IMG/VR virus record: IMGVR_UViG_3300030331_002896
Location: 1 to 36,565 of that record
Strand: one strand, 5' to 3'
Source: a virus
Length of the DNA: 36,565 nt
Shown here: one piece after another, positions 3,884 through 36,503 of the stretch
Position numbering within the stretch: the first letter of the stretch is position 1
How the letters are laid out: each line of letters begins with the position of its first letter
Translations under genes and position numbers: made by a program
Notes under the pieces: model-generated
Database searches by the model: none
The model's input: the letters and a program-made list of their open reading frames with translations, nothing else
What the model was told of the DNA's origin: nothing

Positions 3884-3912
3884 ATTATACAATGTGATAC
3901 ACTCAGTGTCAA
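3884..3912 (-). promoter_or_regulatory. Perfect-consensus sigma70 promoter
   Basis: On the minus strand TTGACA (3912-3907), a 17-nt spacer, then TATAAT (3889-3884): both hexamers match the bacterial sigma70 consensus 6/6. The predicted start lies near 3877, giving an ~18-nt leader with a GGAG site before ATG 3859. The -35 box overlaps the last codons of the 68-aa gene upstream. It drives the hypothetical genes, DUF4406 and the glycosyltransferases. Confidence 0.9.
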
Positions 3913-4138: not shown

Positions 4139-4146
4139 TATTTATC
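4139..4146 (-). promoter_or_regulatory. Late-type promoter GATAAATA
   Basis: The minus strand reads GATAAATA, one mismatch from the T4 late consensus, 24 nt upstream of ATG 4115. It overlaps the stop codon of the PEP-CTERM-like gene. Confidence 0.45.
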
Positions 4147-4810
4147 TGCGTCTTCTTCTTCCTACAAACAGAGATGTCATGAGAAGTGCGAGAGATCCGG
4201 GTGCGGGGATCATCATCGTGGTCGTCGGTGTCTCTCTGAAAGGAATCGTCTCCCATTCATTGAATGCGAGTGCCGGCGGAGTTGTCAACTGAAAATTCTC
4301 AATCAATTGACTACTGAAAACAAGAGGGTCCATCTCTACCTTTGGAAGTAATGCCTCTGTTAGATACGAAGTATCCTCGTATGGATCACCTAAGAATATC
4401 TCGAATCCGGTGGGTCTTCCGTAACCTGCCAGTATGGGAATGTTTACGGGAACACTCTTCTTTGGTGGATTCTTTTTCTTGTCTTCTTCTTTTTCTGCGG
4501 GCGGTTCCTCGGGCGATTGCTCTGTTACTGCCGCTGAAAGAATGTCTCCCGGTGACACATCGACCACCTTGTTGAAACTTTCTATGAAGCTTGCAACCTT
4601 ATCGACGAACTCTTTCCCGAGTATGGTGCCGGCAACGACGGCGGCCACACCGATCTGGAGTAGTCTCTTCTGTAAATGCTTTTTACTTGCTTCACAATTC
4701 TTGAGAGCGTCTTCTTGTTTCTCTACGGACTCTCTCTTTTGATCTTCTAGTTCACTCTTTAAATCATCATAATCACGACAGCGTGGACATCCTTCGGTCG
4801 GATCAGACAT
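4142..4810 (-). CDS. PEP-CTERM-like membrane protein with zinc-knuckle and coiled coil, 222 aa
   Basis: The start is set at 4810 (MSDPTEGCPRCRDYDDLK) by a strong AAAGGGGAG site and a TATAAATA promoter 27 nt upstream; a longer frame to 4972 lacks these. In order: a CPRC pair (residues 8-11), a charged coiled coil (~15-50), a hydrophobic segment (LLQIGVAAVVAGTILGKEF, ~51-70), a Pro/Glu/Lys linker (~110-120), a beta-rich region and the tail PAPGSLALLMTSLFVGRRRRR, whose order (PxP motif, short hydrophobic stretch, Arg cluster) is that of PEP-CTERM sorting signals abundant in planctomycetes. In hosts this tail directs proteins to an exosortase-type system. There is no N-terminal signal peptide. 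A host-envelope or virion-anchored role is inferred. Confidence 0.75.
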   Translation of the reverse strand: MSDPTEGCPRCRDYDDLKSELEDQKRESVEKQEDALKNCEASKKHLQKRLLQIGVAAVVAGTILGKEFVDKVASFIESFNKVVDVSPGDILSAAVTEQSPEEPPAEKEEDKKKNPPKKSVPVNIPILAGYGRPTGFEIFLGDPYEDTSYLTEALLPKVEMDPLVFSSQLIENFQLTTPPALAFNEWETIPFRETPTTTMMIPAPGSLALLMTSLFVGRRRRR

Positions 4811-4836
4811 GAGTATCTCCCCTTTACTCGTTTCTT

Positions 4837-4844
4837 TATTTATA
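4837..4844 (-). promoter_or_regulatory. T4-like late promoter TATAAATA
   Basis: Exact TATAAATA on the minus strand, 27 nt before the ATG of the PEP-CTERM-like gene, with the AAAGGGGAG ribosome-binding site in between. The arrangement matches T4 late genes. Confidence 0.65.
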
Positions 4845-4942
4845 TTTTGAGCGGACCCTGGCAGCATTTTTAGCCCCCAAATTTTTGCAGCACCCCACAG
4901 CCACCCCCAGCGGTTTCGTGGCCGACTGCTATTTGCGCTTGT

Positions 4943-4995
4943 GTTAGTATAACAGAACCCCCGCCGTTTCACTGCGGCAGGGGCCTGTTGCTAAC
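4943..4995. other. Long imperfect inverted repeat (structured intergenic element)
   Basis: Four arm segments pair in order around an 8-nt loop: GTTAG/CTAAC, ACAG/CTGT, then CCCCCGCCG/CGGCAGGGG with one mismatch. Small internal loops separate them (TATA against TG, AA against C). About 17 of 18 stem positions can pair. It lies in the 213-nt gap between the end of the CobS-side operon (5024) and the late promoter of the PEP-CTERM-like gene. No U-tract follows on either strand, so an intrinsic terminator is only one option; a processing site or structured RNA are others. The rest of the gap (4845-4942) is GC-rich, with no gene or tRNA fold that I can support. Confidence 0.45.
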
Positions 4996-5534: not shown

Positions 5535-6941
5535 TCAGAACGGGGCGTCAGTGGGAGCAACGGTCGGGCTGTACTGGGCCCATCCATCGGGGTTCTGGTT
5601 GTACTTGTAACCAGTGATCTGCCAAGTCTTGCGACCAGCGTTCCAAGTGGCGCCGGCGTTCTTGACATCATCCTTCTGATCGTAGGTCGTGGAGAGATCC
5701 AGCACCATCTCATCGGTGATGGGCTCGAGAGTCTGGATCTCCGGCGCGGCCGACTCCTGATCGTCTTCGGGTCGCACGGAAGCGTCGATCTTCTCGTACA
5801 TCGAGATGAACGATTCCTTCGTGGCATCGTCGAAGCGAGCGGTGGCCATCTCGACTGCCTTGCGACGGCATCCGAAGATGCTGAAGGCGGTAGCGATGTT
5901 GACCAGTCGCCGGGTCGTGACGATCTCGTCCACGGCATCCTGCATGTAGCAGGTTCGAATGTCGTTGGACCATCGCGTCAGGCACGCGGCGAATTCGGAG
6001 TCAGCCGCACCGAGCGACTTCATCACCTTCATGACGATCTTCTTCTCGGTGGACTTGGAAGGGTAATCCTGCTCAAGCGTGACCGGGAATCGATCGAGGA
6101 AGGCTTCGTTCAGAATGTTCGTAGCAACGAACTTTCCGCTTTCGTCGCCCTTACCCTTGGTGTTGGCAGTGGCGATCACGTTGAAGCCCTCGGCGGGCTT
6201 GACGAACGTGTTGATCTTCTTGAGGAAGACACCCTTGCCTTCCATGACGGGCTGAAGACACATGATGGCCGGCCCCGCCAGATCGATCTCATCGATCAGG
6301 AGGATAGCACCACGCTTCATGGCCTGGACGACTGGACCATCCTGCCAAACGGTATCGCCATTGATCAGGCGGAAACCACCGAGCAAGTCGTCCTCATCGG
6401 TCTGAGCCGTGATGTTGACGCGGAAGCACTCCCGCTTCATCTTGGCACAGACCTGATCGACCATCGTGGTCTTCCCGTTTCCGGAAAGGCCCGTCAGGAA
6501 GACAGGGTAGAACATCGTCGAACCGACGATCTGCTCGATGTCTTCGAAGTGACCCCACGGAACGTAGGTCGAGATCTTCGAAGGCACGAGCGACTCCTGC
6601 TCTCCGCCAGTCATGGCGAGAGCGAAGTTAGCCTCAGCAGTCGGAACCGAACCGACCGGCACAGCCGACTGAACCGACTTGCTCGACTTCGGCGCGACCG
6701 AAGCCTTGGAGCGGGGCTGGACAGTCGGCACGTTGCCGGTGTCGGTTCCGATCAAGTCGGAGATATCCCACAGACCGCGGCCGACCTTACGGTCTGCATC
6801 GGTTCGCACCCATGCCGGGATGCAAGTCCAGCCACCGTGATTCGCGGCGGTCAGGAGGTCATCGTACGATGCCGTGGCGGGAGCGCCGGTATCGATGAGG
6901 CACTGGATGAAACGGGTCTGCTTGGGCTTGAAATTGGTCAA
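5535..6941 (-). CDS. cobS: CobS/MoxR-like AAA+ ATPase, 468 aa
   Basis: The start is TTG at 6941 with GGAG 9 nt upstream; no in-frame ATG is nearby. Residues ~1-65 form a small unknown domain. Residues ~140-340 are an AAA+ module: Walker A GLSGNGKTT, DEDDLLGGFRL, Walker B ILLIDEIDLAGP, sensor 1 NVIATANTKGKGDES and the NEAFLDRF arginine region. This is the CobS/MoxR pattern. The last ~45 residues (NAGATWNAGRKTWQITGYKY) form a separate small domain. In bacteria CobS drives Co insertion into the corrin ring with CobT and CobN, and MoxR ATPases remodel VWA-partner complexes. Phage homologues are common in T4-like marine phages, and their substrate is not established. The CobT-like VWA partner is divergent, from a twin promoter. 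Confidence 0.85.
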   Translation of the reverse strand: MTNFKPKQTRFIQCLIDTGAPATASYDDLLTAANHGGWTCIPAWVRTDADRKVGRGLWDISDLIGTDTGNVPTVQPRSKASVAPKSSKSVQSAVPVGSVPTAEANFALAMTGGEQESLVPSKISTYVPWGHFEDIEQIVGSTMFYPVFLTGLSGNGKTTMVDQVCAKMKRECFRVNITAQTDEDDLLGGFRLINGDTVWQDGPVVQAMKRGAILLIDEIDLAGPAIMCLQPVMEGKGVFLKKINTFVKPAEGFNVIATANTKGKGDESGKFVATNILNEAFLDRFPVTLEQDYPSKSTEKKIVMKVMKSLGAADSEFAACLTRWSNDIRTCYMQDAVDEIVTTRRLVNIATAFSIFGCRRKAVEMATARFDDATKESFISMYEKIDASVRPEDDQESAAPEIQTLEPITDEMVLDLSTTYDQKDDVKNAGATWNAGRKTWQITGYKYNQNPDGWAQYSPTVAPTDAPF

Positions 6942-7249: not shown

Positions 7250-9541
7250 ATGACCATTTCTGCAAATACCGTTTCCCTCTCCAATACTCTCATCGATTCC
7301 AAGTCAATTCTCTCCCGCCTCCTGGCCGGTGAGAATATCGACGTTCAGCACCAGAACGTCCATACCGCTTCGTTCGATGTCCAGAACCGCGTGCTTACCC
7401 TGCCCATGTGGAATAACATGACCAACGAGCTCTACGATATGCTCGTCGGTCACGAAGTCGCTCACGCGCTCTTCACTCCTGCCGGCATGGATCCTCTCAT
7501 GGCCGCAGTCGCCACGATCAACAGCCGCGACTTCGCAGCTGCGAAGGATTGCCTCAACATCGTCGAAGACGCCCGCATCGAGCGGCTCATGAAGGATAAG
7601 TTCCCGGGCCTGGTCCGGGACTTTCGCATGGGCTACGACCGTATGCACACGGATGGCATCTTCGGTGATCTTCCCGCTTCTTCCGTCGGCATGCCCCTGA
7701 TGGATCGCGTCAACCTCCACTTCAAGCTCGAAGACCGATACGCGGTCTCGTTCAACGCTGAAGAGCAGGATCTCGTCAACCGAATCGCAGTGGCGACTGA
7801 ATGGTCCGAAGTTGTCGATCTCGCCCGCGAGCTCTACGACATGTCGAAGCTCGAACAGGACGAGAAGGAGCAGGAGCAGGAAGAATCCGAATCCGGCCAG
7901 ACTCCTGAGAAGGGCCAGTCCGGCAACGGCGGTTCTCCTTCGCCCTCGAACGAATCGACTGACGACGATTCCGAAGGCGAAGACGGTAAGGGCTCGGGCG
8001 GTGACGCCGGCGACGACGAAGATGTCAACGGTACTCCCGAAGGCAGCGAGTCCGGTGACGGTGACGACACCGGCGGATCGATGGACGACGACACCGACAC
8101 CGGCGAGTCTGCTGACTCCGATGAAGTCGATGGTACTGCCGCGTCCGGCCGCGAAGCGGGCGATACTGGTTCCACGCTGCAGCGTTCCACTACCCAGCAG
8201 GGTATGGAAGAAGCGCTCGTCGATAAGGACCGAGCCGAAGACGAGCATCCCGCTCTCTACGGACAGCTTCCCGTGCGAATGGATGTCGATAAGGTGATCG
8301 TGCCCGCGAGCGAGATCACCAAGGAGCTCTCTCAGAACCTGACCATCGATCAGAAGATCGCCATCAAGGCCTACGCCGATACCTTCCTCCGCGATCAGAA
8401 GCTTCTGATCAACGTCATGGCGAAGCAGTTCGACATGAAGAAGGCCGCGGACGTTGCCCGCAGGGCGCAGATCTCGAAGACTGGTGTTCTCGATACCGTC
8501 AAGATGGTCAACTACAAGTTCTCGGAAGACATCTTCCGCAAGAACACGATTCTGCCCAAGGGTAAGAACCACGGCATGGTCGTTCAGATCGACTGGTCTG
8601 GATCGATGGATCAGCAGATGGGTGATACCATCCAGCAGGCCATCAACCTCGTCATGTTCTGCAAGCGAATCGGAATTCCCTTCGCGGTCTACGGTTTCAC
8701 CACTGGATGGGATCGCCGTAGTTACGATGCTCCCGAAGCAGTCGGTTCGATCACCAAGGGCAGCAAGAACTTCAAGGTTTCCGGTGACGGATTCCGTCTT
8801 CTGGAGATGAGTTCTTCGAACCTCAGTCCCACCGATTACGCTCAGTCGCTGGTCAACATGGTCACGCTCATGGATTACTTCAACATCAACGGCGGCCGCC
8901 GCAAGAGCAAGGCGCGAGTCTTCACCCCGAACGACTACTACTGCATCGGTCGTCGTCTGGGTCTCGGTGGTACTCCTCTCGACGAGGCCATCGCCGCGAC
9001 TGCTCCTCTGATCATGCGAATGCGTGACGCCGGCGTCCAGCACCCCACCGCCGTGTTCCTCACGGACGGATGCTCCGGTTCTGGTCCGATCAGTTACTAC
9101 GGTGCTGCACTTAACGGGTCCGAAGGTGGATACTACCGCGATGCGATTCTGAAGATCGGAAACAAGGTCGTCGAAGGTAAGAAAGACACCGATCGACTCC
9201 TGAACTGGCTTCGACAGGCCACGGGATGCCGCACCATCGGGTACTTCCTGACTGACAATGGTCACTACGCCACTCAGTACATGAACGACCACGACAAGGC
9301 TACCAAGGCCCTCGAAGACTTCCAGAACAACAAGTACGTTGCACTGACCGACTACCCCGGATACGATCACTACTTCGTCTTCGATCCCAAGATCAACGGA
9401 CGAGCACTGAATGCTTTCGACAATCTCCCGGAGAACGCCTCCGCGGCACGAGCGAAGACCGCATTCATCAAGCAGGCTGCTGCGAAGAAGGCCGAACGCA
9501 GTATGCTCACCACCCTGGCCGGTAACTTTGCGGAGGTCTGA
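7250..9541 (+). CDS. cobT: CobT-like HExxH/VWA protein, 763 aa
   Basis: Domains in order: an N-terminal region with a zinc-protease-like HEVAHALFTP site (residues ~72-81; VGHEVAHALFTPAG) and a downstream DCLNIVEDARIE segment supplying possible acidic ligands; a long acidic Gly/Ser/Asp/Glu linker (~205-320); a helical domain; then a VWA domain from ~440 with the MIDAS motif DWSGSM and later GGTPLDEAI and FLTDGCSGSG. This matches the CobT-like metallopeptidase/VWA partner of CobS-like ATPases in T4-like marine phages. Bacterial CobT works with CobS in cobaltochelatase, but the HExxH site suggests proteolysis or another remodelling role here. No ribosome-binding site precedes the ATG, which lies at the predicted transcript start. 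GC and codon use are higher than in the structural genes. Confidence 0.85.
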   Translation: MTISANTVSLSNTLIDSKSILSRLLAGENIDVQHQNVHTASFDVQNRVLTLPMWNNMTNELYDMLVGHEVAHALFTPAGMDPLMAAVATINSRDFAAAKDCLNIVEDARIERLMKDKFPGLVRDFRMGYDRMHTDGIFGDLPASSVGMPLMDRVNLHFKLEDRYAVSFNAEEQDLVNRIAVATEWSEVVDLARELYDMSKLEQDEKEQEQEESESGQTPEKGQSGNGGSPSPSNESTDDDSEGEDGKGSGGDAGDDEDVNGTPEGSESGDGDDTGGSMDDDTDTGESADSDEVDGTAASGREAGDTGSTLQRSTTQQGMEEALVDKDRAEDEHPALYGQLPVRMDVDKVIVPASEITKELSQNLTIDQKIAIKAYADTFLRDQKLLINVMAKQFDMKKAADVARRAQISKTGVLDTVKMVNYKFSEDIFRKNTILPKGKNHGMVVQIDWSGSMDQQMGDTIQQAINLVMFCKRIGIPFAVYGFTTGWDRRSYDAPEAVGSITKGSKNFKVSGDGFRLLEMSSSNLSPTDYAQSLVNMVTLMDYFNINGGRRKSKARVFTPNDYYCIGRRLGLGGTPLDEAIAATAPLIMRMRDAGVQHPTAVFLTDGCSGSGPISYYGAALNGSEGGYYRDAILKIGNKVVEGKKDTDRLLNWLRQATGCRTIGYFLTDNGHYATQYMNDHDKATKALEDFQNNKYVALTDYPGYDHYFVFDPKINGRALNAFDNLPENASAARAKTAFIKQAAAKKAERSMLTTLAGNFAEV

Positions 9542-16968: not shown

Positions 16969-16976
16969 TATTTATG
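16969..16976 (-). promoter_or_regulatory. Late-type promoter CATAAATA
   Basis: One mismatch from TATAAATA on the minus strand, overlapping the stop of the 1464-aa gene and 20 nt before ATG 16949. Confidence 0.5.
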
Positions 16977-19900
16977 CACCCGTAATCCCATTCGGAGCAG
17001 CGTGACTCGCTAGTGTGCATATAACGTCATCGATTTCCGCGACCTGATTCGAGTCTGACCCACTAAAAGAGGAGAAGTATACTCTACTATTGAACCCACC
17101 ATTGGTCTTGTCGTGTATTCTACTACACGCTCCAAGATATGGTTTGTCAATATCAGCGTTTGTAGCGCAAATAAGGTCTGCATCGTCTCCTGTAAAACCA
17201 AAGACCTCAAGGGAAGCATCATATGGTCTAATATTCAAATTAATCGGGTCAGAAAATGTGCTTCCCAACATACTAGCGACACCGCCGGTTGCCCTAATCT
17301 GTAGGGTGTCACCATTCTGGGAAATTAATGTAAAGTATCCACCCGCTTCGATACCGGGATGACCACCAAATCCGGCTGAGAGTCCGTCTCTCCATGCAAA
17401 CACAGCGTCGAACATCTTAGTATCGTTCAATATTTCAATTCCACCAGCAGAGGAGACTGGATAATATCCTGAGTTAATTTGGGGGAAGTGCGTATCAGTG
17501 GCTTGCCTTTGGTAGTCAGAGAATGGACTCTTCATGGAACACGCAGTCCAACCATTATTTAAGTTATCATTACCCACTTGGGATGGTATGATTAAACTCT
17601 CCTCGCCCGGAACGAAACCCCCGATATCGTTTTTTACATGTCTTGAGAAACTAGAACTAGAGGAATTGAGAAAATCAGCGTTCGGTTGTGTATATCGATT
17701 GTCTCCTAGATTCGCTCCTTCATCGCCCGCGTTTTTCCCGGTTTCCATTTGTTGGGATAGGACGGTCCCATCCGTGACATCATAGTCCGGATACCATCCG
17801 TGTTCATGTTTAACCCACCCGGCCGGGCCGATACCCGATGTCCATCCACACTCGTCAATACCTCTACTCAACTGTTCGTGGGTTCTATACCACCAACCAT
17901 TCCCGTTGAACTGGTAAGTTGAAGTCGCGTTTGACCCATCACTTGCAGGGAAAGATCCAGCGCTTGGCGGTCTATAAAAAGCAGTACATCCTGCGAACTT
18001 AGAACTAATTGTCGAAATACCTTGTGAGGAAATGTCCAACAGACAGTGACTAGCAGCTAAGTATTGCCATCCACGGTACTCACAATTACTGATCATATCT
18101 AAAACTTTACCCGTCTGCTGATAGGGGAGATCCAGAACTTTAGCGGTAGTTGCGCTATTTGTATCCGATCCGCTATTGTAAAGTCTCTGGGCGTGATGAG
18201 AACTGTATTGATCAGATTGATTTGAGTCGGGAGTGGTTGCTCCGGTGGCTTGACTGCCATCGGGATTTAAGTATAAAGTTTTGTCATTTCGATCGCCCTT
18301 TTGTCTCCAAGATATATCCCTACCAAAACCACCATAGAGAAATCCATTGGCATTACCAATACCGGTCACTTCATTTAGATCTGACAGACTGACCGTGGGT
18401 TGACCATAGGTATCTACGGTTTTTGGACCAGCATAAAGGTATCCCCCCACTATATTAAGTGGGTAGTAGGATAGAATTGAAGGACTGGGCATGATACCAT
18501 CCACGACATCAGAACCTAGTAGGCCACCACGATGACCAACTGCGGAATCTGATTCCCATCTATCCATGCCGTGATATCTTTGGTTTTGTTCGTATGGTCT
18601 AGTAGCGTCTCTAAATAGTCCATAATTAACTCTAGCTGTACCATTCACATCGTTGGCGCCGCCGGACTCGTTGAATTCTTGTGGGCAAGTATTTGATCTC
18701 TCCCCACCGCGCCCAGTCCCAGCTGGTTCCTGTAGTCGTTCGACAATTTGAAATTTTCGAACACCATCTCCGACTGTCCACTCGGGCCTGAAGTTTGCAC
18801 CACTGTAATAACATGGGTATTGAGATGTAGGTAGACCACTGGGGCCATGATCATCTTCGTCATCTGAACGAGGGAGTTGGGAAAGTAACGTCGTTACTGA
18901 GAAAACTCTTTGTTCCGGTTGGAAGACCGAACCGGTTATTGGTTCGATGTTCTCACCGATCCCGGCACCACCGAACCCACGATCTGGGAGACCGGGGGCC
19001 CCGATCCCGAAGAGTTCAGATTGGATTTTATCAAGTTCTGCATTTGTCCAATAAGTGGATCCGGCATATTTTTCAGTGCCCGGCTTGTACGCTGCTGAGT
19101 TACCAGCCCCCACCCACAACCAATTACTTAAGACTGTAAATCTGGGGTTTAACCAAGAACAGTTCTGTCTGCCTATCATCGAACACCAACCCATCCCACA
19201 ATATCCAGTGAGTCCCATCGGGTTAGATTGTAGGTGAGTAGCTGATGGGTTAGCGGATCCGGGTGTCTGATTCGGCGGAGCTTCTATACCGTTCGTCAAA
19301 ACTTCATTGAAAGATGGCAGGGTTCCTCCTGTCCAGACACTATCAGGTTGACGATAAAACTCGTTTAGTTTTACAGCCCCCCAACTATTCATATATCCTC
19401 TATTTGTTATGTTTTCTCTAGCTTCCTTTGCGTATCCAAAGAAACCGGGGGGTGTAATAAAGTTTCCAAATAACTGTGGGTGTTGTTGACCTCTGATCGT
19501 TATGGGAGCAGTGGTTTGTGGGGTTATAGACCCCCTAAATCTTAGTTGATCATCGATGGCACCGGCCGGCGATTCGAAAGCGAAGCTGTCACTGTTTCCA
19601 TGTATGATATCAAACATGGGTCCACTAAACCAACTGTGATAATTTGACGCAGGATATACACTAAATGCGACACCCTCATTGGCAACACTAAGTGAAGCGG
19701 CATTAATAGCAACTCTGTCTATGAAGTTGTCAGTCCAAGGAGCAAAGAAAGATCTAGCTATTCCAGTTGAAATTATTGGCAGGTCGAACAACTCCTCTGA
19801 CCTGACACCTATTCTATTAACGGCTTCTCTAGCAAAGGGAGTTCTTGCATTTTCGATAGTTGGATTGACCACCAAATCTCCGGTATTGGAGGGTTGAGGG

Positions 19901-21366
19901 TCTGCTCCGACTTGGTTGAGGATCGAATCACATGTCGAAAAGTAAGGTTCGTAGTGTCGAGTCGTAGCGGATCCAACTATATAAGGTTCACCATTCATAA
20001 ATTCTCTACAAGCCCCACCAGTAAATCCAACGTTATCAGATAGATCATTTTGGGGGTCAGAACACCCGCAGGGATTGATACCACATGTATCAATCAACGA
20101 AGTATCAATTCTTTTGGTCTCGTCGAAGAAGGGCAATCCGAGCGGGTCTGAGCTCCAGTTGGATCTTACCAAACCCTTTCCGCAACCAAACTCAAGCAGA
20201 TAGTCTGACTCTGGGTATTGGAATTGTTCCGTCCTTCCCGGTGCGGTGAATCCAGCTAAGGCAAAAGTACACCCAGTCTCAGTGAAAGTGGGAGGAGAAC
20301 AGGGACCACTAATGGTCGGCGTTAGGAAAAGATTACAGAAAGTAACACCCTCTTCATATGTGATATACGCAAAGAACGCTTTATATGCAGAGTTGGAACA
20401 ACCAGCACAATCATTTCCAGTTATGTTTATCATTCTACTTGGATCGATTTGATTTGTATTTGTTATTCCAGGCCCAAAATCCTCAACAGACACAAAATGT
20501 CCAGTGTTAGTGATGCAGTAATGAGGCGTGATCCCGCCTTGGGTTTCAGAGAGAGGATCTCTAATTGAAGGAGACTCTGGCATATCAACATTAATTGGAC
20601 ATCCGTTTTCGCCGGGCCCTGCTGGTCCTAAGTAGGACAATGATCCGGAGGCATCACAGAGTTCACAGTTGGAATTTTGCGGGCAACCCTCGGCACATGT
20701 GCTGGTGGTGCATAGACAATTAGGTGACACGTAAGGCACGCTAATACCGCAATGAATTGCATCTCCCGTTACACCACCGAAACAAAAATCGCACATTTCG
20801 TCTTCAGTTGGAATGCAGAAAGTGTGTCCAAATTGCGTACAATTAACTCCAGTTTCTATGCAACATTCATCACTTAATCGATCATCCGGTCCTCCAGTCC
20901 TACAAAATATGTCCTCCGGACCAACGGCGCACAGATCCTGTGCGTTCGCATTTTGGGGTGCTCCACAATTAGTCGTAAGGTGATTTTGAGAATTCGCAGA
21001 AATTCTATTAACGATGTTCTTGAAAAAACAATTTAGTCCTTTTACATAATCTCCCGTACAAGAACAAAACTCTTCATCAGGCATCCCTACTGGTGGGCCC
21101 TCATAAACATCGCTGGTTTTATCGATACAATTATTCGGTGGATAAGTTCTCGGCCTGTTGTAATCTATGCACTCAGATGTCATTGTACAATCATAAATGT
21201 AAGCAAAGGCTGGTTTGTCTGGGACTGGGAAATTGTCAAAACCAAACACTACGTGTTCCGTACCAGTTAAACCAAAACAATAAGTATCACCACCGGGGGT
21301 TGGTCCACCCGGAGTCACTACTGATCTGAAATGTTTGAATCCCATTCGGCCAGCATTAAAGAACAT
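16972..21366 (-). CDS. Giant cysteine-rich putative adhesin, 1464 aa
   Basis: This is the largest gene in the window, with ATG 21366, a GGAG site and a TATAAATG late element. By eye about 36 cysteines fall in the first ~480 residues in short clusters (EFCSCTG, DECCIETGVNC, CDFCFGG, NCLCTTSTCAEGCPQNSNC, NPCGCSD), with few later. The rest is rich in Asn, Gly, Ser, Tyr and Trp with no long helices. This is typical of beta-rich extracellular or receptor-binding proteins. There is no signal peptide (MFFNAGRMGFKHFRS) or membrane segment, so it is more likely a virion tail/fibre protein than a secreted one. I recognise no domain. Disulfide-type content is unusual for a cytoplasmically assembled virion protein. 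Confidence 0.7.
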   Translation of the reverse strand: MFFNAGRMGFKHFRSVVTPGGPTPGGDTYCFGLTGTEHVVFGFDNFPVPDKPAFAYIYDCTMTSECIDYNRPRTYPPNNCIDKTSDVYEGPPVGMPDEEFCSCTGDYVKGLNCFFKNIVNRISANSQNHLTTNCGAPQNANAQDLCAVGPEDIFCRTGGPDDRLSDECCIETGVNCTQFGHTFCIPTEDEMCDFCFGGVTGDAIHCGISVPYVSPNCLCTTSTCAEGCPQNSNCELCDASGSLSYLGPAGPGENGCPINVDMPESPSIRDPLSETQGGITPHYCITNTGHFVSVEDFGPGITNTNQIDPSRMINITGNDCAGCSNSAYKAFFAYITYEEGVTFCNLFLTPTISGPCSPPTFTETGCTFALAGFTAPGRTEQFQYPESDYLLEFGCGKGLVRSNWSSDPLGLPFFDETKRIDTSLIDTCGINPCGCSDPQNDLSDNVGFTGGACREFMNGEPYIVGSATTRHYEPYFSTCDSILNQVGADPQPSNTGDLVVNPTIENARTPFAREAVNRIGVRSEELFDLPIISTGIARSFFAPWTDNFIDRVAINAASLSVANEGVAFSVYPASNYHSWFSGPMFDIIHGNSDSFAFESPAGAIDDQLRFRGSITPQTTAPITIRGQQHPQLFGNFITPPGFFGYAKEARENITNRGYMNSWGAVKLNEFYRQPDSVWTGGTLPSFNEVLTNGIEAPPNQTPGSANPSATHLQSNPMGLTGYCGMGWCSMIGRQNCSWLNPRFTVLSNWLWVGAGNSAAYKPGTEKYAGSTYWTNAELDKIQSELFGIGAPGLPDRGFGGAGIGENIEPITGSVFQPEQRVFSVTTLLSQLPRSDDEDDHGPSGLPTSQYPCYYSGANFRPEWTVGDGVRKFQIVERLQEPAGTGRGGERSNTCPQEFNESGGANDVNGTARVNYGLFRDATRPYEQNQRYHGMDRWESDSAVGHRGGLLGSDVVDGIMPSPSILSYYPLNIVGGYLYAGPKTVDTYGQPTVSLSDLNEVTGIGNANGFLYGGFGRDISWRQKGDRNDKTLYLNPDGSQATGATTPDSNQSDQYSSHHAQRLYNSGSDTNSATTAKVLDLPYQQTGKVLDMISNCEYRGWQYLAASHCLLDISSQGISTISSKFAGCTAFYRPPSAGSFPASDGSNATSTYQFNGNGWWYRTHEQLSRGIDECGWTSGIGPAGWVKHEHGWYPDYDVTDGTVLSQQMETGKNAGDEGANLGDNRYTQPNADFLNSSSSSFSRHVKNDIGGFVPGEESLIIPSQVGNDNLNNGWTACSMKSPFSDYQRQATDTHFPQINSGYYPVSSAGGIEILNDTKMFDAVFAWRDGLSAGFGGHPGIEAGGYFTLISQNGDTLQIRATGGVASMLGSTFSDPINLNIRPYDASLEVFGFTGDDADLICATNADIDKPYLGACSRIHDKTNGGFNSRVYFSSFSGSDSNQVAEIDDVICTLASHAAPNGITGA

Positions 21367-30502: not shown

Positions 30503-30741
30503 AAAAGTTATTATTGATTTTATTTTGTGCAGGTTTAGTCGGATGTGCAGGCAACCAGAAGATTTTAGGCGAGAATGATTCGGCTCCAATCAAACAGGTT
30601 GGTTCTCCAGTCGAAATCGTGGAGGCCTCCGGATCCCATTGGTGGGTTTATATGATCTGGTTCGTTCTCATTGTGGCATCGGTTATATTCGCCTGGAGAG
30701 AGTTCAAACCTAGTCCTCCTGAACAAACCACCGATTCATGA
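30499..30741 (+). CDS. Lipoprotein with C-terminal membrane helix, u-spanin-like, 80 aa
   Basis: N-terminal lipoprotein signal with lipobox: MKKLLLILFCAGLVGC|AG. A ~35-residue periplasmic stretch follows, then a membrane helix (HWWVYMIWFVLIVASVIFAW, ~47-66), an Arg and a short tail. A lipidated N-terminus plus C-terminal inner-membrane helix is the architecture of unimolecular spanins such as T1 gp11, which fuse inner and outer membranes at lysis. The periplasmic part is short for that role, so a general envelope protein is the alternative. It is the last gene of the operon and converges on the GIY-YIG gene with a 32-nt overlap. Confidence 0.62.
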   Translation: MKKLLLILFCAGLVGCAGNQKILGENDSAPIKQVGSPVEIVEASGSHWWVYMIWFVLIVASVIFAWREFKPSPPEQTTDS

Positions 30742-31123
30742 TATTAGAATTGTAGTAGGCCCGGTCACCATTATCCATAGACTCAGATAGAACATCATTC
30801 TTAATCTGATACTCGACTTCAGAGAATGTAAGTTCTCCTCTACTCTTGCACAGTTTCAGAACCTCGAACTTGAAGTTCTCTATACCATATTCCTCGATGT
30901 CCCGATTGAGTTCGTCGCAGGATCCTGTGTAGGATCTCCACTTAGATTCTTTTACCACACGTTTTCTGTTCTTCCTGCCGGTCACTTTCTTTCGTGTATA
31001 CGAGTGTAATTGTTTCTTGCCGATATACTTTCTGCCTGTCTCTTTGTGGGTGATCTCGTAAACAAAACCAAACCACCGATCTGGTTCAAAGTCTACTGGT
31101 AAGTTTTCCCAATGTCCAAACAT
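30710..31123 (-). CDS. GIY-YIG endonuclease, SegE-like, 137 aa
   Basis: Start at ATG 31123 (MFGHWENLPVDFEPDRW). The nuclease core is GFVYEITHKETGRKYIGKKQ (GIY reads FVY, then KYIGKK), followed by SKWRSYTGSCDELNRDIEEY with the conserved R and an EFEVL-like strand (FKFEVLKLC). The catalytic Glu is in the SEVEYQIKNDVL helix. This matches the T4-like SegE-type GIY-YIG family, mostly free-standing homing nucleases. The ribosome-binding site (GGAGAGG) lies within the hairpin at 31131-31154. The 3' end overlaps the convergent lipoprotein gene. Confidence 0.85.
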   Translation of the reverse strand: MFGHWENLPVDFEPDRWFGFVYEITHKETGRKYIGKKQLHSYTRKKVTGRKNRKRVVKESKWRSYTGSCDELNRDIEEYGIENFKFEVLKLCKSRGELTFSEVEYQIKNDVLSESMDNGDRAYYNSNIMNRWFVQED

Positions 31124-31130
31124 AAAAAAA

Positions 31131-31154
31131 CCTCTCCCCATATTTAGGGAGAGG
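31131..31154. terminator. Bidirectional terminator hairpin with embedded RBS and late element
   Basis: CCTCTCCC (31131-31138) pairs with GGGAGAGG (31147-31154), 8 bp, loop of 8 nt. On the minus strand seven Ts follow (31130-31124), ending the porin transcript. On the plus strand TTCTTTATTGTTCTTTT follows, ending the late operon. The minus-strand 3' arm holds GGAGAGG, the ribosome-binding site of the GIY-YIG gene, and the loop holds CCTAAATA. Confidence 0.85.
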
Positions 31155-31179
31155 TTCTTTATTGTTCTTTTAGTTTGTA

Positions 31180-32241
31180 TCAGAAACTAAAAGTGATCTG
31201 GGATCGAACGAGGTACTGTCCGTCCTCGGAGTTGTTCGACCAACCAGTGTCGTTGACATCCCATGAAGCGCCGACACCCTCGAAAGAGTAACCAACAGAG
31301 TTGGTCCATCGGACATTCGTGCAGAGGTCATAGTTGACACCAACAGTCGCAATGTTCAGAACTTCCGAGTCGATCTTGCCGTACTCGTACATACCAAACA
31401 GTTGACAATTGGTTGCAACTCGATAACCGACCTGTCCAACCGCACCCCAGCCGTCAGCGTCACCATCTCGGGCAACATAACCAACGCTACTGGTGAGATC
31501 ATCACTCAGGTCGAAAGTGGCATCAAAGGTGTACGATGTAACACCCATATCGGCAGCCTCGTTGTATGCAATAGCAGCACCGAGATCTACCCAGTCGAGT
31601 CCACCGTAAGAGAGACGACCAACAAAACCATAGTCGTGGTCGGTCGTAACCTCAGTATTAGCGGAGTTGAAACCATCGGTGTAGGCACCGGAGAGGTTGA
31701 AGTCTCCAAGTTCCTTCGAAAGTTCCACACCCTGCGATCGTCCCTGACCAAAGGTATAAGAGACGATCGAGTAATCGCCAATCAGAGTGTCTGGAGTTGA
31801 AACATTAACCTCAGACATGAACTGAGTCTTAAACTGTCCAACTTTAACAGTCGCAAATCCAAAGTCGTTACGAATATAAGCGTCACGAAGTCGGAAATCG
31901 GTGTTAGAACCTACCTCTGCGGTAAACTTGTAGCTTGCGAACCCGTCACCGAGTTGCAGACGACCCTTGAACCCAAAGGCGGCCTTACGAACGTCGAATC
32001 CCTGACGAACATCTAGGTCATCACCGTCGTTGTACAGGTATCGAAACTGTACAAATCCGGTGGGAGTAAAGGTGAAGTCTCTGTGGACCCCATCCCGAAG
32101 TGAAGTGTGAGTTGCAGACTCGGCAAGAACCTCGCGGATCATTTCCCTAGTCTCGGCAGCTCTCATTGACTCCACGTTAGTATCTGCGTAGCAAGTTCCA
32201 CTTGCGATTGACGCAGCAACAATAGTAGTAAGTAAATTCAT
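31180..32241 (-). CDS. Outer-membrane porin, planctomycete-type, 353 aa
   Basis: Start at ATG 32241 (AAGGAG 7 nt before it). Signal peptide MNLLTTIVAASIASGTCYA|D. Residues ~23-50 form a helical or coiled region (ESMRAAETREMIREVLAESA), then FTPTGFVQFRYLYNDGDDLD and alternating strands with GRLQLGDGFASYKFTAEVG, ending QITFSF with the C-terminal aromatic of beta-barrel outer-membrane proteins. The pattern resembles OprO/OprP-like porins, particularly Planctomycetes/Phycisphaerae versions with the E-REML/VLADA-type N-terminal helix and QFRY phrase, as far as I recall. Length is typical. Probably acquired from the host; a nutrient-uptake or receptor-masking role is inferred. Preceded by a small membrane protein in the same transcript. 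Confidence 0.82.
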   Translation of the reverse strand: MNLLTTIVAASIASGTCYADTNVESMRAAETREMIREVLAESATHTSLRDGVHRDFTFTPTGFVQFRYLYNDGDDLDVRQGFDVRKAAFGFKGRLQLGDGFASYKFTAEVGSNTDFRLRDAYIRNDFGFATVKVGQFKTQFMSEVNVSTPDTLIGDYSIVSYTFGQGRSQGVELSKELGDFNLSGAYTDGFNSANTEVTTDHDYGFVGRLSYGGLDWVDLGAAIAYNEAADMGVTSYTFDATFDLSDDLTSSVGYVARDGDADGWGAVGQVGYRVATNCQLFGMYEYGKIDSEVLNIATVGVNYDLCTNVRWTNSVGYSFEGVGASWDVNDTGWSNNSEDGQYLVRSQITFSF

Positions 32242-32263
32242 GTCTTTTCTCCTTGACATTTAC

Positions 32264-32458
32264 TCAGGCACCCCAAGAGGTGACAGCATCCCAAACAGTT
32301 GCGATTGCATCGCGGAACCAAATTACGCCATCCCATGCGAAGGGAATAAGAGCGAGAGTAATGAGAGTAGAACGGCACACGCCGAACTTCGTAAGAGTTT
32401 TACCGACGACATCGGTAGCGCACCCAAAATAGGAGCAATTGTTTGCAGTCTTAGTCAT
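32264..32458 (-). CDS. Small membrane protein, 64 aa
   Basis: ATG 32458 has AAGGAG at a good distance and follows a perfect-consensus promoter. Four cysteines lie in the first 30 residues (NNCSYFGCATDVVGKTLTKF, GVCRS) and one membrane helix at ~30-50 (STLITLALIPFAWDGVIWF). Next gene, 22 nt on, is the porin, so both are co-transcribed. No family is recognised; a partner for the porin or an envelope modifier is possible. Confidence 0.68.
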   Translation of the reverse strand: MTKTANNCSYFGCATDVVGKTLTKFGVCRSTLITLALIPFAWDGVIWFRDAIATVWDAVTSWGA

Positions 32459-32520
32459 ATTTTTTCTCCTTATGTTTAGACTGTAGTCACAGACGGACTA
32501 ACCGAATGTGAACAATATGT

Positions 32521-32549
32521 ATTATACTTTAATTTGATCAGTTTGTCAA
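32521..32549 (-). promoter_or_regulatory. Perfect-consensus sigma70 promoter for the porin operon
   Basis: Minus strand: TTGACA (32549-32544), 17-nt spacer, TATAAT (32526-32521), both 6/6 matches. The start near 32514 gives a ~55-nt leader before ATG 32458. The -35 overlaps the end of the NrdJ gene. Confidence 0.9.
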
Positions 32550-34487
32550 GTCAACAATTTCACATGAGTTTCCGGAACAAGCCATCGTCTGGGTTCCGGA
32601 TGTATTGTCTTCCTTTTCATAACTGGATAGTTCCAACCAATCAACTTCCTGAGGCAGTTTCTTGCAAAACTCGGTAAACTCCCTCTTGGTAGAATCTTGG
32701 TATGGAGCCTGTCTGTAGGAGTGGTCACTGTGAGGCAGGAATGAGATACCTGAAATCTCATCAAAGTGATCGTAAACCCAACCACCCACCATAGGCCACT
32801 CTTCTTCTTTAACGGTGATGGTAACACTTGGTTTGTGTTCACACCAATGTCTCTGATAAACCAACCAGAGTTCTAGTTGTTCTATCGCACTCATATCGTT
32901 TCTCGTAACAGAACCCTTGGGGGACTGCACCGGGAAAGAAAATACTGTAACATGATCTGGTTTCATCACATCAGCTTCGTTCGGGAATCCTTTATCCTTC
33001 ATGAACTTGCACAGAGGATCTTTGTTGTCTGCCCGAACTGTTCTGATGTAATAGTCATTGTGTCTAGCATGAATACCAGAAGCGGCATCGGTCAACTGAG
33101 AGACTGTCCCGGATGGTTTCACGCATGTAATTGCGGCAGACTGAGGAATACCAAGAAGATCTGCATGTTCCTTGTTGGTAACAATAGCAGTTCTTCTGAA
33201 ACCCTCCAGTCTATCCGACAGACCCTTCATGTCTCTGGTAATCTTAGAATCCATGATGCCTGTCATGGACACTCCAAGAAGCCTCTCCTCCTCGCAGTTC
33301 TTTCTCCAATCACCCGACAGGTAACGAAAGTTTACAAGAGTAGACTGCCAAGTTCCTAGAATGGTTGCGAGTTGTACCTTTCGGTTGAGACTCTCTTCGG
33401 TGTCATTATTGCGAACAACGACCTCTGTCAGATTACAGAATTCCTTGTCACGAAGAATAATTTCAGAACATGGATTGGTTCCGAAGTCGTGATCCGGGTC
33501 TCTGGTCACATAACTAGAGTCAATGTCCAGACGGAACTTGTTCGCCTTTTCGATTTGCTTCTTGGAAGCATCACGATTGAAGATACCGCGTTCACCACTC
33601 TTTGACTTATAAAGAGATAACCATTCTTCCATAAAAGTACCGGACTCCGGCTTCTCTCTGTAAGCTACGGAGTTATTAGCAAGAGCCCTCTGGGGGTCTG
33701 CTTCCCACCAGGCACCACTCTTTGCGTCTCTCATACGTTCGTCCGTAAGAGAAGAAAGAGAAATCAATGCGGACCGGCGTACGCCTCCGACAACCACAAT
33801 CTCTGCAATTTTGCAGATGATATCGTGACATTCGATAGAAGTAAGTTTTCTACCCTTTGCTCGTCGGAAAGTTTCGACGGTGAATTTAAATAAGTCTTCA
33901 AGCGGTTCGGGTCCACTTGCCCGACCTCCAAAAGTTTTAAGTCTTGCGCCCGCAGGGCGAACTTTGCTTGTGTCCCATTTTGGAACCTGACCTCCAATGA
34001 GCAGGCTAAAGAGCTCTCTATACGCTTTCGCCCAGCCCATCTTCGAATCCTGTACAACAATTGTCGTATCACTGTCTTCAAACTCCTCTGCTATCGTCGG
34101 CAGGGTTTTGATGAGTTCGCGTTCGACAGAAAATCCAACGCCAGTTCCGCACATAAGAACGTACAGAATTTCATCAAACGACTTGACCTTATTTGCACTA
34201 ACGTAGGAACAATTATACCCTGCGATATTGTCCCTTCTAAGGGCTTCACCAGAAGTCATCAATGCCCTCATGGATGGCATGATCTCTAGATTCACAACAG
34301 CTCGTTCTAATTCTTCGCGGAGACCGGGATCTACTTCGTGATCACATGTTTCTCTAAGGTGTTCTGTAAAAAAATCAAAATACCTTTTCACGGTTTCCTC
34401 CCAAGTTTCTCGTCGGTTTTCTTTATCTAACCATCGAGAGTATCGAGAGAGGTGTATAAAATCTTGATATAAACTAGGTAGTCCCAT
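32538..34487 (-). CDS. nrdJ: Adenosylcobalamin-dependent ribonucleotide reductase, class II monomeric type, 649 aa
   Basis: It reduces ribonucleotides to deoxyribonucleotides using B12. Catalytic cysteines fit the RTPR (L. leichmannii-type) layout: Cys93 in NCSYVSAN, then NPCSEIILRDKEFCNL with Cys340 and Cys351, 11 residues apart as for C408/C419 of RTPR. The C-terminal redox pair is ACSGNSC (residues 637 and 642). Substrate-site phrases include CGTGVGFSVE, GGVRRSALISLSS and CVKPSGTVSQ. At 649 residues it is slightly short for the family (~700-740), as in other phages. It directly follows ThyX (TGA then ATG) in the primase operon. Phages with class II enzymes depend on host or environmental B12; the CobS/CobT-like genes here are a possible but unproven link. 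Confidence 0.93.
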   Translation of the reverse strand: MGLPSLYQDFIHLSRYSRWLDKENRRETWEETVKRYFDFFTEHLRETCDHEVDPGLREELERAVVNLEIMPSMRALMTSGEALRRDNIAGYNCSYVSANKVKSFDEILYVLMCGTGVGFSVERELIKTLPTIAEEFEDSDTTIVVQDSKMGWAKAYRELFSLLIGGQVPKWDTSKVRPAGARLKTFGGRASGPEPLEDLFKFTVETFRRAKGRKLTSIECHDIICKIAEIVVVGGVRRSALISLSSLTDERMRDAKSGAWWEADPQRALANNSVAYREKPESGTFMEEWLSLYKSKSGERGIFNRDASKKQIEKANKFRLDIDSSYVTRDPDHDFGTNPCSEIILRDKEFCNLTEVVVRNNDTEESLNRKVQLATILGTWQSTLVNFRYLSGDWRKNCEEERLLGVSMTGIMDSKITRDMKGLSDRLEGFRRTAIVTNKEHADLLGIPQSAAITCVKPSGTVSQLTDAASGIHARHNDYYIRTVRADNKDPLCKFMKDKGFPNEADVMKPDHVTVFSFPVQSPKGSVTRNDMSAIEQLELWLVYQRHWCEHKPSVTITVKEEEWPMVGGWVYDHFDEISGISFLPHSDHSYRQAPYQDSTKREFTEFCKKLPQEVDWLELSSYEKEDNTSGTQTMACSGNSCEIVDLTN

Positions 34488-35240
34488 TCACGTATTCTCC
34501 GTAATGCTTTTCTCTGGATCATTTATGTATGTCAATTCTTTCCACGACTCAGGGAAAAGAGGTTGGATTAGATTTGAAATTGCTCTTGCGTATTGTCGTA
34601 TTTCCCACTGTGCATGTTCGTCAATTCTCTGACTGTAGAACCTTGCGTAGGCTGCGAGGCTGCCTGTCCAATACCATTCGGTATACATCCCTTGGGGCAA
34701 GACAAATCTAGCCTGTTCAGGGGCGACCCCATTCTCAAGAAGTTGACCGTATGTGTACATGCAGGCTCTGATTGCATTCTCGTAACCCTTTTCCGTTTCG
34801 GAATCGATGCCAACAAAGTCTTCACTACCTTGTTTCGCGCCATTAGTGGGTTTGCCTCTCCACTCGGGGTAGTAAAATTCAGGTTCAAATGAAACGTAAC
34901 GACGACTAATTTCGTTCTCAACGAAACCCTGCTTATGCTTAAAGAACTGGGTTCGGATAGAAATCGGCGCCTTAATTCGTAAAGTGATCTGTGGGTGTGC
35001 AAATGGGGTCCAGTGATTGTGTCGAGCGAGATAACGAATCAACTTCTTATCTTTTTCACACAACACCAGAATATCTTCTCTGTGGTACTTTGATCCTGTT
35101 TCAGCGAGTCTGATTATAGCCTCTTTATCCTCGCACCATTCACTTTCGTTATTGAAAGAAACTCTAGCCGCATTACATACGGTGAGGTCACTTCCCATGT
35201 GATCTACGAGTTGAACATGTCCTTTATCTAAAACTCTCAT
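34488..35240 (-). CDS. thyX: Flavin-dependent thymidylate synthase, 250 aa
   Basis: It makes dTMP from dUMP with FAD and methylenetetrahydrofolate. The signature region FKHKQGFVENEISRRYV (residues 100-116) corresponds to the ThyX motif RHRxxSxNExSxRY, with basic substitutions in RHR and no Ser at the usual first position. Other ThyX phrases: NHWTPFAHPQITLRIKAPIS, then ARFVLPQGMYTEWYWTGSLA and HAQWEIRQYA. Length is normal. The ATG overlaps the 58-aa gene stop (ATGA) and NrdJ follows at once, so the two dNTP enzymes are made together. Confidence 0.93.
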   Translation of the reverse strand: MRVLDKGHVQLVDHMGSDLTVCNAARVSFNNESEWCEDKEAIIRLAETGSKYHREDILVLCEKDKKLIRYLARHNHWTPFAHPQITLRIKAPISIRTQFFKHKQGFVENEISRRYVSFEPEFYYPEWRGKPTNGAKQGSEDFVGIDSETEKGYENAIRACMYTYGQLLENGVAPEQARFVLPQGMYTEWYWTGSLAAYARFYSQRIDEHAQWEIRQYARAISNLIQPLFPESWKELTYINDPEKSITENT

Positions 35241-35413
35241 TCTTCATCCTTATCAAGATAGTATAGTGTCACGCCTTCTACGTCAGTAAAGTCCTTGGCA
35301 AAATCTACTGCTCGGTTCCACAGATCCGGATCGTTTTCTTTTATGTAACCAGAAAATAATTTATTAAATTTCAGTAGTGCTTTAAGTAGTCTGTCATCCG
35401 GATCTTCATTCAT
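35237..35413 (-). CDS. Small acidic protein, 58 aa
   Basis: The start is set at ATG 35413, which overlaps the primase stop (ATGA); an ATG four codons earlier is the alternative. The protein (MNEDPDDRLLKALLKFNKLF, then DVEGVTLYYLDKDEE) is helical at the start and acidic overall. It sits between primase and ThyX with 4-nt overlaps on both sides. No family is recognised; a replication accessory role is a guess from position. Confidence 0.62.
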   Translation of the reverse strand: MNEDPDDRLLKALLKFNKLFSGYIKENDPDLWNRAVDFAKDFTDVEGVTLYYLDKDEE

Positions 35414-36468
35414 ACTTTTTTCCATTTGTTAAATTTTAATTGAGCAATCATACCCTCACAGGAATTTTCATCCATCATTTTCTTTATCTCCCTAACACTC
35501 ATACCACTGGTTATCATATCATTAATGTCTTTGTGTTGCAAGTTCCTAGGCCAGATACACACAGTTTTTCCACGATCGATGAGTTTTTGCACATAAGAGC
35601 ATATCTGTGGATTCCTTGGTTCGTTGTCTAGAGCGTAAATCAGTTCAGAATTTTCGAACCTCGGATGCACGTTATCAATAGCGCCCGCACCTACCATTGC
35701 GATGGTGTTGGGAACGAACAAAGAATCAAGTGGGCCCTCAACAACGTAAACCGTTTTCTTTGGGTTTGCACGCCACATACCATACCAGAGACGATCAATA
35801 CTCTTATCTGCCTTCACAGTAATATACTTGGCGGTTCTTCTTGCCTGGTGTTCTTCTCTAAAAGATAGGCTTCTACCCTGAACTGCAACTACCTCATCCT
35901 TCTTATTAAAGAAGGGTATGATTAGTCTTTGATCTTCCCCCACCAGACCTCTAACTTCAGGGTCCACTAGTTTCATGTACTTGTGAAAATCCTTAGAGTA
36001 GTAAAGTATATCGTAAAACTTTTTTGGGATCTGTCTAAGTTCTAGGAATTGCTTTGCTACGTGGTTGTCCGGCAGATCCTTGACTCGGACAAGTGGTTTG
36101 AGTAGATCATCTTTCTTTTTAAACTTCGGTCTAGAAAATATGGGCATGAGCTCTGTATCTTTGGGTTTCTTGTAATTTGATTTACCCGTTTCTCCGTTCT
36201 TGAATCTCTCTAGGGAATATTGTTTCATTAAAGTTGGGTCAAGTTGTTCCAAGAAGTTATACAGGTTGGAACCAAAGTTGCAATTATGACAACGATAAAA
36301 GAAGTTGGAGTTCTTCTTGTAAAAGAACCCTCTGGCCTTTGATTTATTCTTGGTAGAGTCTCCGCAAATAGGACACCTACAATTAGCTAGATCTTCCCTT
36401 TTCCAAGAGAATCTTTCTAACCTGGCCGAAACTAAATTTATATACTTTTTATCGACATAAAAACTCAT
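35410..36468 (-). CDS. DNA primase, DnaG/T4 gp61-type, 352 aa
   Basis: It makes RNA primers for lagging-strand synthesis, working with the replicative helicase (gp41-type). The N-terminal zinc finger is CRCPICGDSTKNKSKARGFF, then RCHNCNFG. The TOPRIM domain has VVEGPLDSLF and the YALDNEPRN acidic site, with AMVGAGAIDN in between. Length is close to T4 gp61 (342 aa). The start is taken at ATG 36468 (MSFYVDKKY), matching the usual phage primase N-terminus; an ATG at 36477 overlaps the -10 box and cannot be transcribed from this promoter. First gene of the primase-ThyX-NrdJ operon. Confidence 0.9.
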   Translation of the reverse strand: MSFYVDKKYINLVSARLERFSWKREDLANCRCPICGDSTKNKSKARGFFYKKNSNFFYRCHNCNFGSNLYNFLEQLDPTLMKQYSLERFKNGETGKSNYKKPKDTELMPIFSRPKFKKKDDLLKPLVRVKDLPDNHVAKQFLELRQIPKKFYDILYYSKDFHKYMKLVDPEVRGLVGEDQRLIIPFFNKKDEVVAVQGRSLSFREEHQARRTAKYITVKADKSIDRLWYGMWRANPKKTVYVVEGPLDSLFVPNTIAMVGAGAIDNVHPRFENSELIYALDNEPRNPQICSYVQKLIDRGKTVCIWPRNLQHKDINDMITSGMSVREIKKMMDENSCEGMIAQLKFNKWKKV

Positions 36469-36475
36469 ACCAAAC

Positions 36476-36503
36476 ATTATACCACATGTTCACAAGAAGT
36501 CAA
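36476..36503 (-). promoter_or_regulatory. Near-consensus sigma70 promoter of the primase operon
   Basis: Minus strand: TTGACT (36503-36498, 5/6), 16-nt spacer, TATAAT (36481-36476, 6/6). Position 36468, the A of the ATG, is 8 nt past the -10 box, so the transcript begins at or within about 2 nt of the start codon. Beyond it (36504-36565) I see no gene with a ribosome-binding site. Confidence 0.85.

Follow-up and report, generated by a model that had tools for sequence, protein, structure and literature searches.

A two-gene unit encoding an outer-membrane porin and a 64-aa membrane protein (TM64) is, as judged from sequence comparison, stably kept and widespread within one lineage of marine T4-like phages that have not been cultured. 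We describe it from the window, a 36.6-kb IMG/VR virus record (36,565 nt) analysed at full length, in which both genes lie on the minus strand at 31180-32458; the features that follow are on the same strand. The unit opens with a σ70-type promoter, TTGACA-17-TATAAT (32521-32549, a 12/12 match), whose -35 hexamer lies inside the last codons of a ribonucleotide reductase (RNR) gene. Next come a TM64 leader of ~56 nt with a hairpin and a Shine-Dalgarno sequence (32459-32514), TM64 itself (32264-32458), a gap of 22 nt, the porin gene (31180-32241) and, directly 3′ of it, an intrinsic terminator hairpin (31125-31160). The usual upstream neighbor is the RNR gene, here encoding a class II (B12-dependent) enzyme (32538-34487), preceded by the conserved neighbors thymidylate synthase ThyX (34488-35240) and a T4-like DNA primase (35410-36477). 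Directly downstream is a SegE-like GIY-YIG homing endonuclease gene (30710-31141; its start may be 31123). Bounded by a promoter and a terminator of its own, the TM64-porin pair forms a separate transcription unit between RNR and the SegE-type gene. An earlier note on this DNA, made from the sequence alone, had placed the porin in a phage operon behind a perfect host-type promoter; the promoter and the pairing with TM64 were borne out, but the pair does not simply belong to a longer operon. SegE-like genes also occur near the porin unit in the loci of eight relatives, and such an enzyme might help mobilise the unit.

On sequence grounds the start of the porin is ambiguous between 32241 and 32259. 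At 32241 the start codon follows a good GGAG Shine-Dalgarno sequence and the product has 353 aa, and the in-frame ATG at 32259 would add MSRRKD, a positive n-region as in most other phage porins.

Outside the unit, G+C content in the window is 0.54-0.58 between 5000 and 10000 and 0.40-0.48 elsewhere. This high-G+C region encodes a MoxR-type AAA ATPase (5535-6941, minus strand) and a large VWA/CobT-like protein (7250-9541, plus strand). A Cys-rich protein of 1464 aa with no family match is encoded at 16975-21366 (minus strand).

The window protein alone had no sequence match in Pfam, PHROG, NCBIfam or the PDB, nor by phmmer, and a profile search of the PDB returned only noise. Relatives were therefore needed to place it. 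Scans of IMG/VR gave at least 87 viral contigs, from which 85 near-complete porins were grouped into 53 clusters at 95% identity; identity to the query of the main scan was as low as 34%. Among 30 phage relatives, nine matched the Pfam family Porin_4 (best 1e-12) and ten matched Porin_O_P (best 6e-10), neither of which matched the window protein. An AlphaFold model built from 30 aligned viral sequences predicted 16 strands (pLDDT 79.8, pTM 0.74), with the barrel spanning residues 59-352 (31186-32067). In the model, a long loop with helical turns lies between strands 5 and 6, the position of the constriction loop L3 in porins. When the model was compared with solved porins by Foldseek, the matches were VhChiP (5e-14), Omp32 (8e-14), OmpU (1e-13) and OprP (3e-12), and a few annotated viral porins were matched as well. 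On these matches, together with the export signals described next, the window protein is a real porin of the Gram-negative type; its 16-strand fold and its channel are predicted.

The targeting signals agree with this assignment. The window porin has a predicted signal peptide (residues 1-19, 32185-32241, ending in ...CYA before DT) and the C-terminus ...QITFSF. The terminal Phe, a BAM signal, is present in all 53 viral cluster representatives, and the signal-peptide h-region in 49 of 53. The earlier note's description of a complete porin with signal peptide and C-terminal FSF was therefore accurate, and one of the two outcomes that it said would refute it, failure to predict a closed β-barrel, did not occur, since the model is a porin-fold barrel of 16 strands.

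The predicted inward loop L3 (residues 139-167, 31741-31827, from the model and the phage porin alignment) is exactly 29 residues long in 53/53 phage porins and 28-29 in cellular ones, and it is conserved as strongly as the barrel strands. The median dN/dS over 37 phage porin pairs was 0.17, which indicates that the porin is used; for the window porin against its relative L001 the value was 0.087. From these sequence comparisons, the porin is kept under purifying selection.

Several observations connect the unit to T4-like phages. Eight of 12 tested contigs, including those of 75-142 kb, carry one T4-type gp23 major capsid gene; those that lack it are a 60.6-kb contig and shorter fragments. 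The capsid protein of L003 is closest (~56%) to those of Pelagibacter phage Mosig/HTVC008M and Methylophilales phage Melnitz. The genes upstream of the unit are usually primase, thyX and RNR. Of the 36 clusters in which the sequence reached far enough, 29 had a detectable RNR within 700 nt; the unit is still present at loci whose RNR is no more than a distant relative. In one contig, a long insertion containing intein/homing-endonuclease-like sequence interrupts the RNR gene (L011:176-3337). Single-protein tblastn searches with four different porins found no member of the family in 50,697 cultured-phage records. The earlier note had regarded outer-membrane porins as rare in lytic phages, which is untrue for this T4-like lineage.

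The porin appears to derive from planctomycetes, in line with the planctomycete-like style noticed earlier. A first scan of a genome collection with phage-specific patterns gave no match. In the second scan, an alignment (A4) that included three hand-made variant fragments served solely to steer the search patterns, and tblastn comparison with a real phage protein confirmed each match. Among 84,980 species genomes scanned, there were seven confirmed porin relatives, of which six are titled Phycisphaerae or Phycisphaerales MAGs and the other is an untitled bacterium. The viral profile found at least one copy in all seven genomes and matched 58 of 149 sampled Planctomycetota genomes. Identity between phage and cellular porins is 28-33%. 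In the maximum-likelihood phylogeny, all 53 porins from phages formed one clade (100/99) nested in a 69-row clade (100/99) together with 16 Phycisphaerae-type cellular porins; the cellular rows of this tree are Planctomycetota only, the root is a midpoint root and some cellular branches are long. The tree thus puts the protein beside Phycisphaerae porins and not with virion proteins, so the other outcome named in the earlier note as refuting did not occur either. Most simply read, these sequences point to a gene that was acquired once, long ago, from a planctomycete and has stayed in phages for a long time since.

The phage porins share with the Porin_4/Porin_O_P-type porins of Phycisphaerae the fold, the family and the L3 length. 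Common to both are an N-terminal VLADA-x-TR segment and an R-x-Q-x-Q-x-x-F-like C-terminal signal, and the longer phage porins also share the coiled coil that precedes VLADA-x-TR. They differ in forming their own clade (sister, with full support), in having ~40 residues fewer around strands 8-9 and shorter L1, L6 and L7 loops, and in being paired with TM64. The window also encodes a 276-aa protein (4142-4972, minus strand) whose C-terminus, ...IPAPGSLALLMTSLFVGRRRRR, resembles a PEP-CTERM sorting tail; the tail scored just below the NCBIfam cut-off (15.8 versus 16 bits, with few examples) and weakly hints at an exosortase-bearing host.

Counting perfect hexamer pairs with spacers of 15-19 nt, we found two in the window, compared with 0.01 expected when the window was shuffled. 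The second one (3884-3912, minus strand, again TTGACA-17-TATAAT) stands before a run of small minus-strand genes. Across the family, the best σ70 match before the unit scored at least 11/12 in 36 of 52 clusters and 12/12 in 23, compared with ~8.5 for the best match in shuffled sequence. In 642 kb, 23 of 29 perfect promoters stand before the unit, with ~0.9 expected in the whole set. Promoter spacers differ between clusters, and L008 and L012 have the promoter past the stop codon of RNR rather than overlapping the gene; the promoter is thus maintained and not inherited by proximity. A strong terminator follows the porin in 47 of 53 clusters; the shuffled sequences gave none.

In many relatives, though not in the window, TM64 is preceded by a longer leader with at least three covarying hairpins. 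In the leader alignment 98.8% of cells were paired, with 23 double-change cells versus 5.2 in shuffles, and the pairing signal dropped sharply when the alignment was slid. Matches to a covariance model of the leader stood before TM64 and nowhere else, with a single match in each of two long contigs. The leader also precedes the porin-less TM64 genes of L177, L188 and L193. It matches no known Rfam family; the candidate Rfam freshwater-2 was rejected at 21.9 bits against a gathering cut-off of 49.9 (E 0.13-0.19). Multi-hairpin leaders, often with a CTAHATAA loop, are found at L066:3054-3168, L029:2004-2118, L219:19622-19736 and L225:1134-1246 and in other TM64 leaders. We considered CTAHATAA as a late promoter and rejected it, as the motif sits in a hairpin loop; it was not enriched before other genes in two long contigs. 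The leader could be a cis-regulatory RNA or an mRNA stabiliser.

TM64, a small protein of inner-membrane type, has a conserved core, G-x-x-RS-x-LITLAL-x-PFAW-x-GV-x-W, and its conserved Cys residues stand near the N-terminus, before the single hydrophobic segment. It lies directly upstream of the porin in 48 of 53 clusters, so the 64-aa Cys-containing protein suspected earlier of sharing the porin's function is indeed a linked partner. A scan of viral contigs for TM64, in which the porin was not used as a query, gave 169 viral contigs, and a porin followed immediately in 40 of 71 new loci. At least nine further TM64 loci (L158, L162, L165, L169, L171, L187, L196, L201 and L205) encode, ~5 nt later, an exported, barrel-like protein of ~256 aa instead of the full porin. 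This reduced protein is colinear with the porin by profile comparison (hhalign 90%, E 1.4e-6), on which its homology rests, the AlphaFold pLDDT being only 30. Four loci (L177, L188, L191 and L193) have TM64 without a porin, and the order is swapped in a few. Conversely, L003 (5013-5972) has a porin without TM64 or the σ70 promoter, located between the major capsid and tail-tube genes. Pairing of the two genes is thus not absolute. TM64 was not detected in 149 Planctomycetota genomes by a search that had no positive control.

What does the unit do? The reading that we favor, at close to even chances, is that it encodes a general-diffusion porin, transcribed early by the host polymerase, that keeps small solutes flowing in during infection. 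By its sequence, the unit is a self-contained, moron-like expression unit of marine T4-like phages. Host RNA polymerase would transcribe it early, the timing being read from the promoter type: a strong promoter of host type, next to genes for nucleotide synthesis, suggests that expression is early. Sec would export the porin and BAM would insert it into the host outer membrane, where this trimmed general-diffusion pore would keep nutrients entering for the adjacent nucleotide synthesis genes even as the phage turns off gene expression in its host. TM64 may help porin assembly or control, or may have an envelope function of its own. Conservation of the constriction loop L3 favors a working pore. 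In cyanophage infections in the dark, host porin transcripts rise, which the authors of that study read as nutrient limitation (PMC5082946).

The strongest competitor, which we consider rather unlikely, is superinfection exclusion, in which the phage porin replaces a host receptor porin and TM64 either prevents DNA entry or works on the porin. Here, too, the strong promoter of host type would fit early expression, and the shortened extracellular L1, L6 and L7, with the missing residues around strands 8-9, fit receptor evasion as well as nutrient flow. There are precedents: the sRNA IpeX, which controls host OmpC, comes from the transcript of a phage porin (PMC12197685), and Llp of T5 is a small phage protein that acts on an outer-membrane receptor (PMC9586334). 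However, the conserved L3 and the purifying selection indicate that the pore architecture itself is kept, and TM64, which has no lipobox Cys signal peptide, is not a lipoprotein of the Llp/Cor type.

Massive production of porin and TM64 might instead weaken the envelope for lysis or for the release of vesicles or decoys. The strong promoter agrees with this, as does TM64, being a small membrane protein whose C-terminal part looks amphipathic. We consider it improbable because in nearly all loci the host-type promoter lies by nucleotide-metabolism genes and not late genes, and because envelope weakening would not need a conserved pore loop.

Still less probable is an OprP-like, phosphate-specific porin that raises phosphate uptake during infection, an idea raised in the earlier note and not borne out. 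The Porin_O_P matches of the ten relatives and the presence of OprP among the Foldseek matches speak for it. However, that family name spans many porins never assayed for phosphate, and VhChiP, Omp32 and OmpU are better Foldseek matches than OprP. The barrel is acidic (net charge -20 in the window protein; phage median -19) and has few Lys and Arg residues (20, counted over the whole barrel), which argues against an arginine ladder of the OprP type. The Pho-box-like sites suggested as a check were not above chance in the window (8 sites versus 12.2 expected, with an E. coli-type box only). That the protein belongs to the virion or serves adsorption, as the L003 gene among structural genes could imply, is barely credible given the signal peptide, the C-terminal Phe, the Phycisphaerae-type porin phylogeny and the usual position of the gene away from structural genes, with L003 the only copy seen among them.

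A broader reading, which includes nutrient supply and exclusion alike and which we hold only tentatively, is that the unit is a two-gene module for remodelling the outer membrane, near-core in a large clade of uncultured marine T4-like phages that probably infect Phycisphaerae. It would consist of a structured leader RNA, TM64 and a barrel, for which the full-size and the reduced form would be interchangeable; TM64 and the porin, controlled by the leader RNA, would act jointly across both membranes, either for nutrients or against competing phages.

Most porins known to be carried by phages come from prophages of enterics or from scattered metagenome contigs, and the Lc/NmpC phage porin is a case of receptor replacement. 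The enteric porins with IpeX (PMC12197685) and the marine OmpL (PMC8115048) establish that porins carried by phages are not new in themselves. Like lambdoid Lc/NmpC with IpeX, the unit described here is a phage-encoded porin of a functional type with its own promoter (PMC12197685). Lc/NmpC is an OmpC-type porin of temperate or cryptic enteric prophages, whereas here the phages are T4-like, the porin is of planctomycete type and it is accompanied by TM64 and a structured leader. Viral OmpL, found by glnK-amtB in contigs from oxygen-minimum zones, is likewise a virus-borne predicted β-barrel, with a promoter and a terminator around the gene set (PMC8115048). That system is known from few contigs, which its authors assign to Bacteroidetes, and is tied to ammonium transport; it has other neighbors and no TM64 is reported (PMC8115048). 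The unit resembles a moron in having its own promoter and terminator between phage genes, but it stays at a single locus throughout a T4-like lineage that is very divergent, and so behaves as a near-core gene and not as a sporadic passenger. TM64, like T5 Llp and T1 Cor, is a small phage protein of the envelope whose target might be an outer-membrane barrel; unlike them, it is encoded beside its own barrel. The open-access literature that we searched gave no case of a conserved module of promoter, leader, TM64, porin and terminator in a T4-like lineage.

The usual view is that lytic phages leave the envelope of the host much as it is. A porin that dozens of divergent T4-like phages retain with its own promoter, partner, terminator and, often, structured RNA leader implies that remodelling of the outer membrane is a selected step of infection, and it suggests that these lytic phages alter the outer membrane of infected cells as a matter of routine. 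To our knowledge, little is known of the viruses of marine planctomycetes, and the porin unit provides a sequence marker for phages of these hosts. The gene pair is also a defined system for deciding between two roles of the phage, supplying the cell it infects with nutrients or keeping competing phages out.
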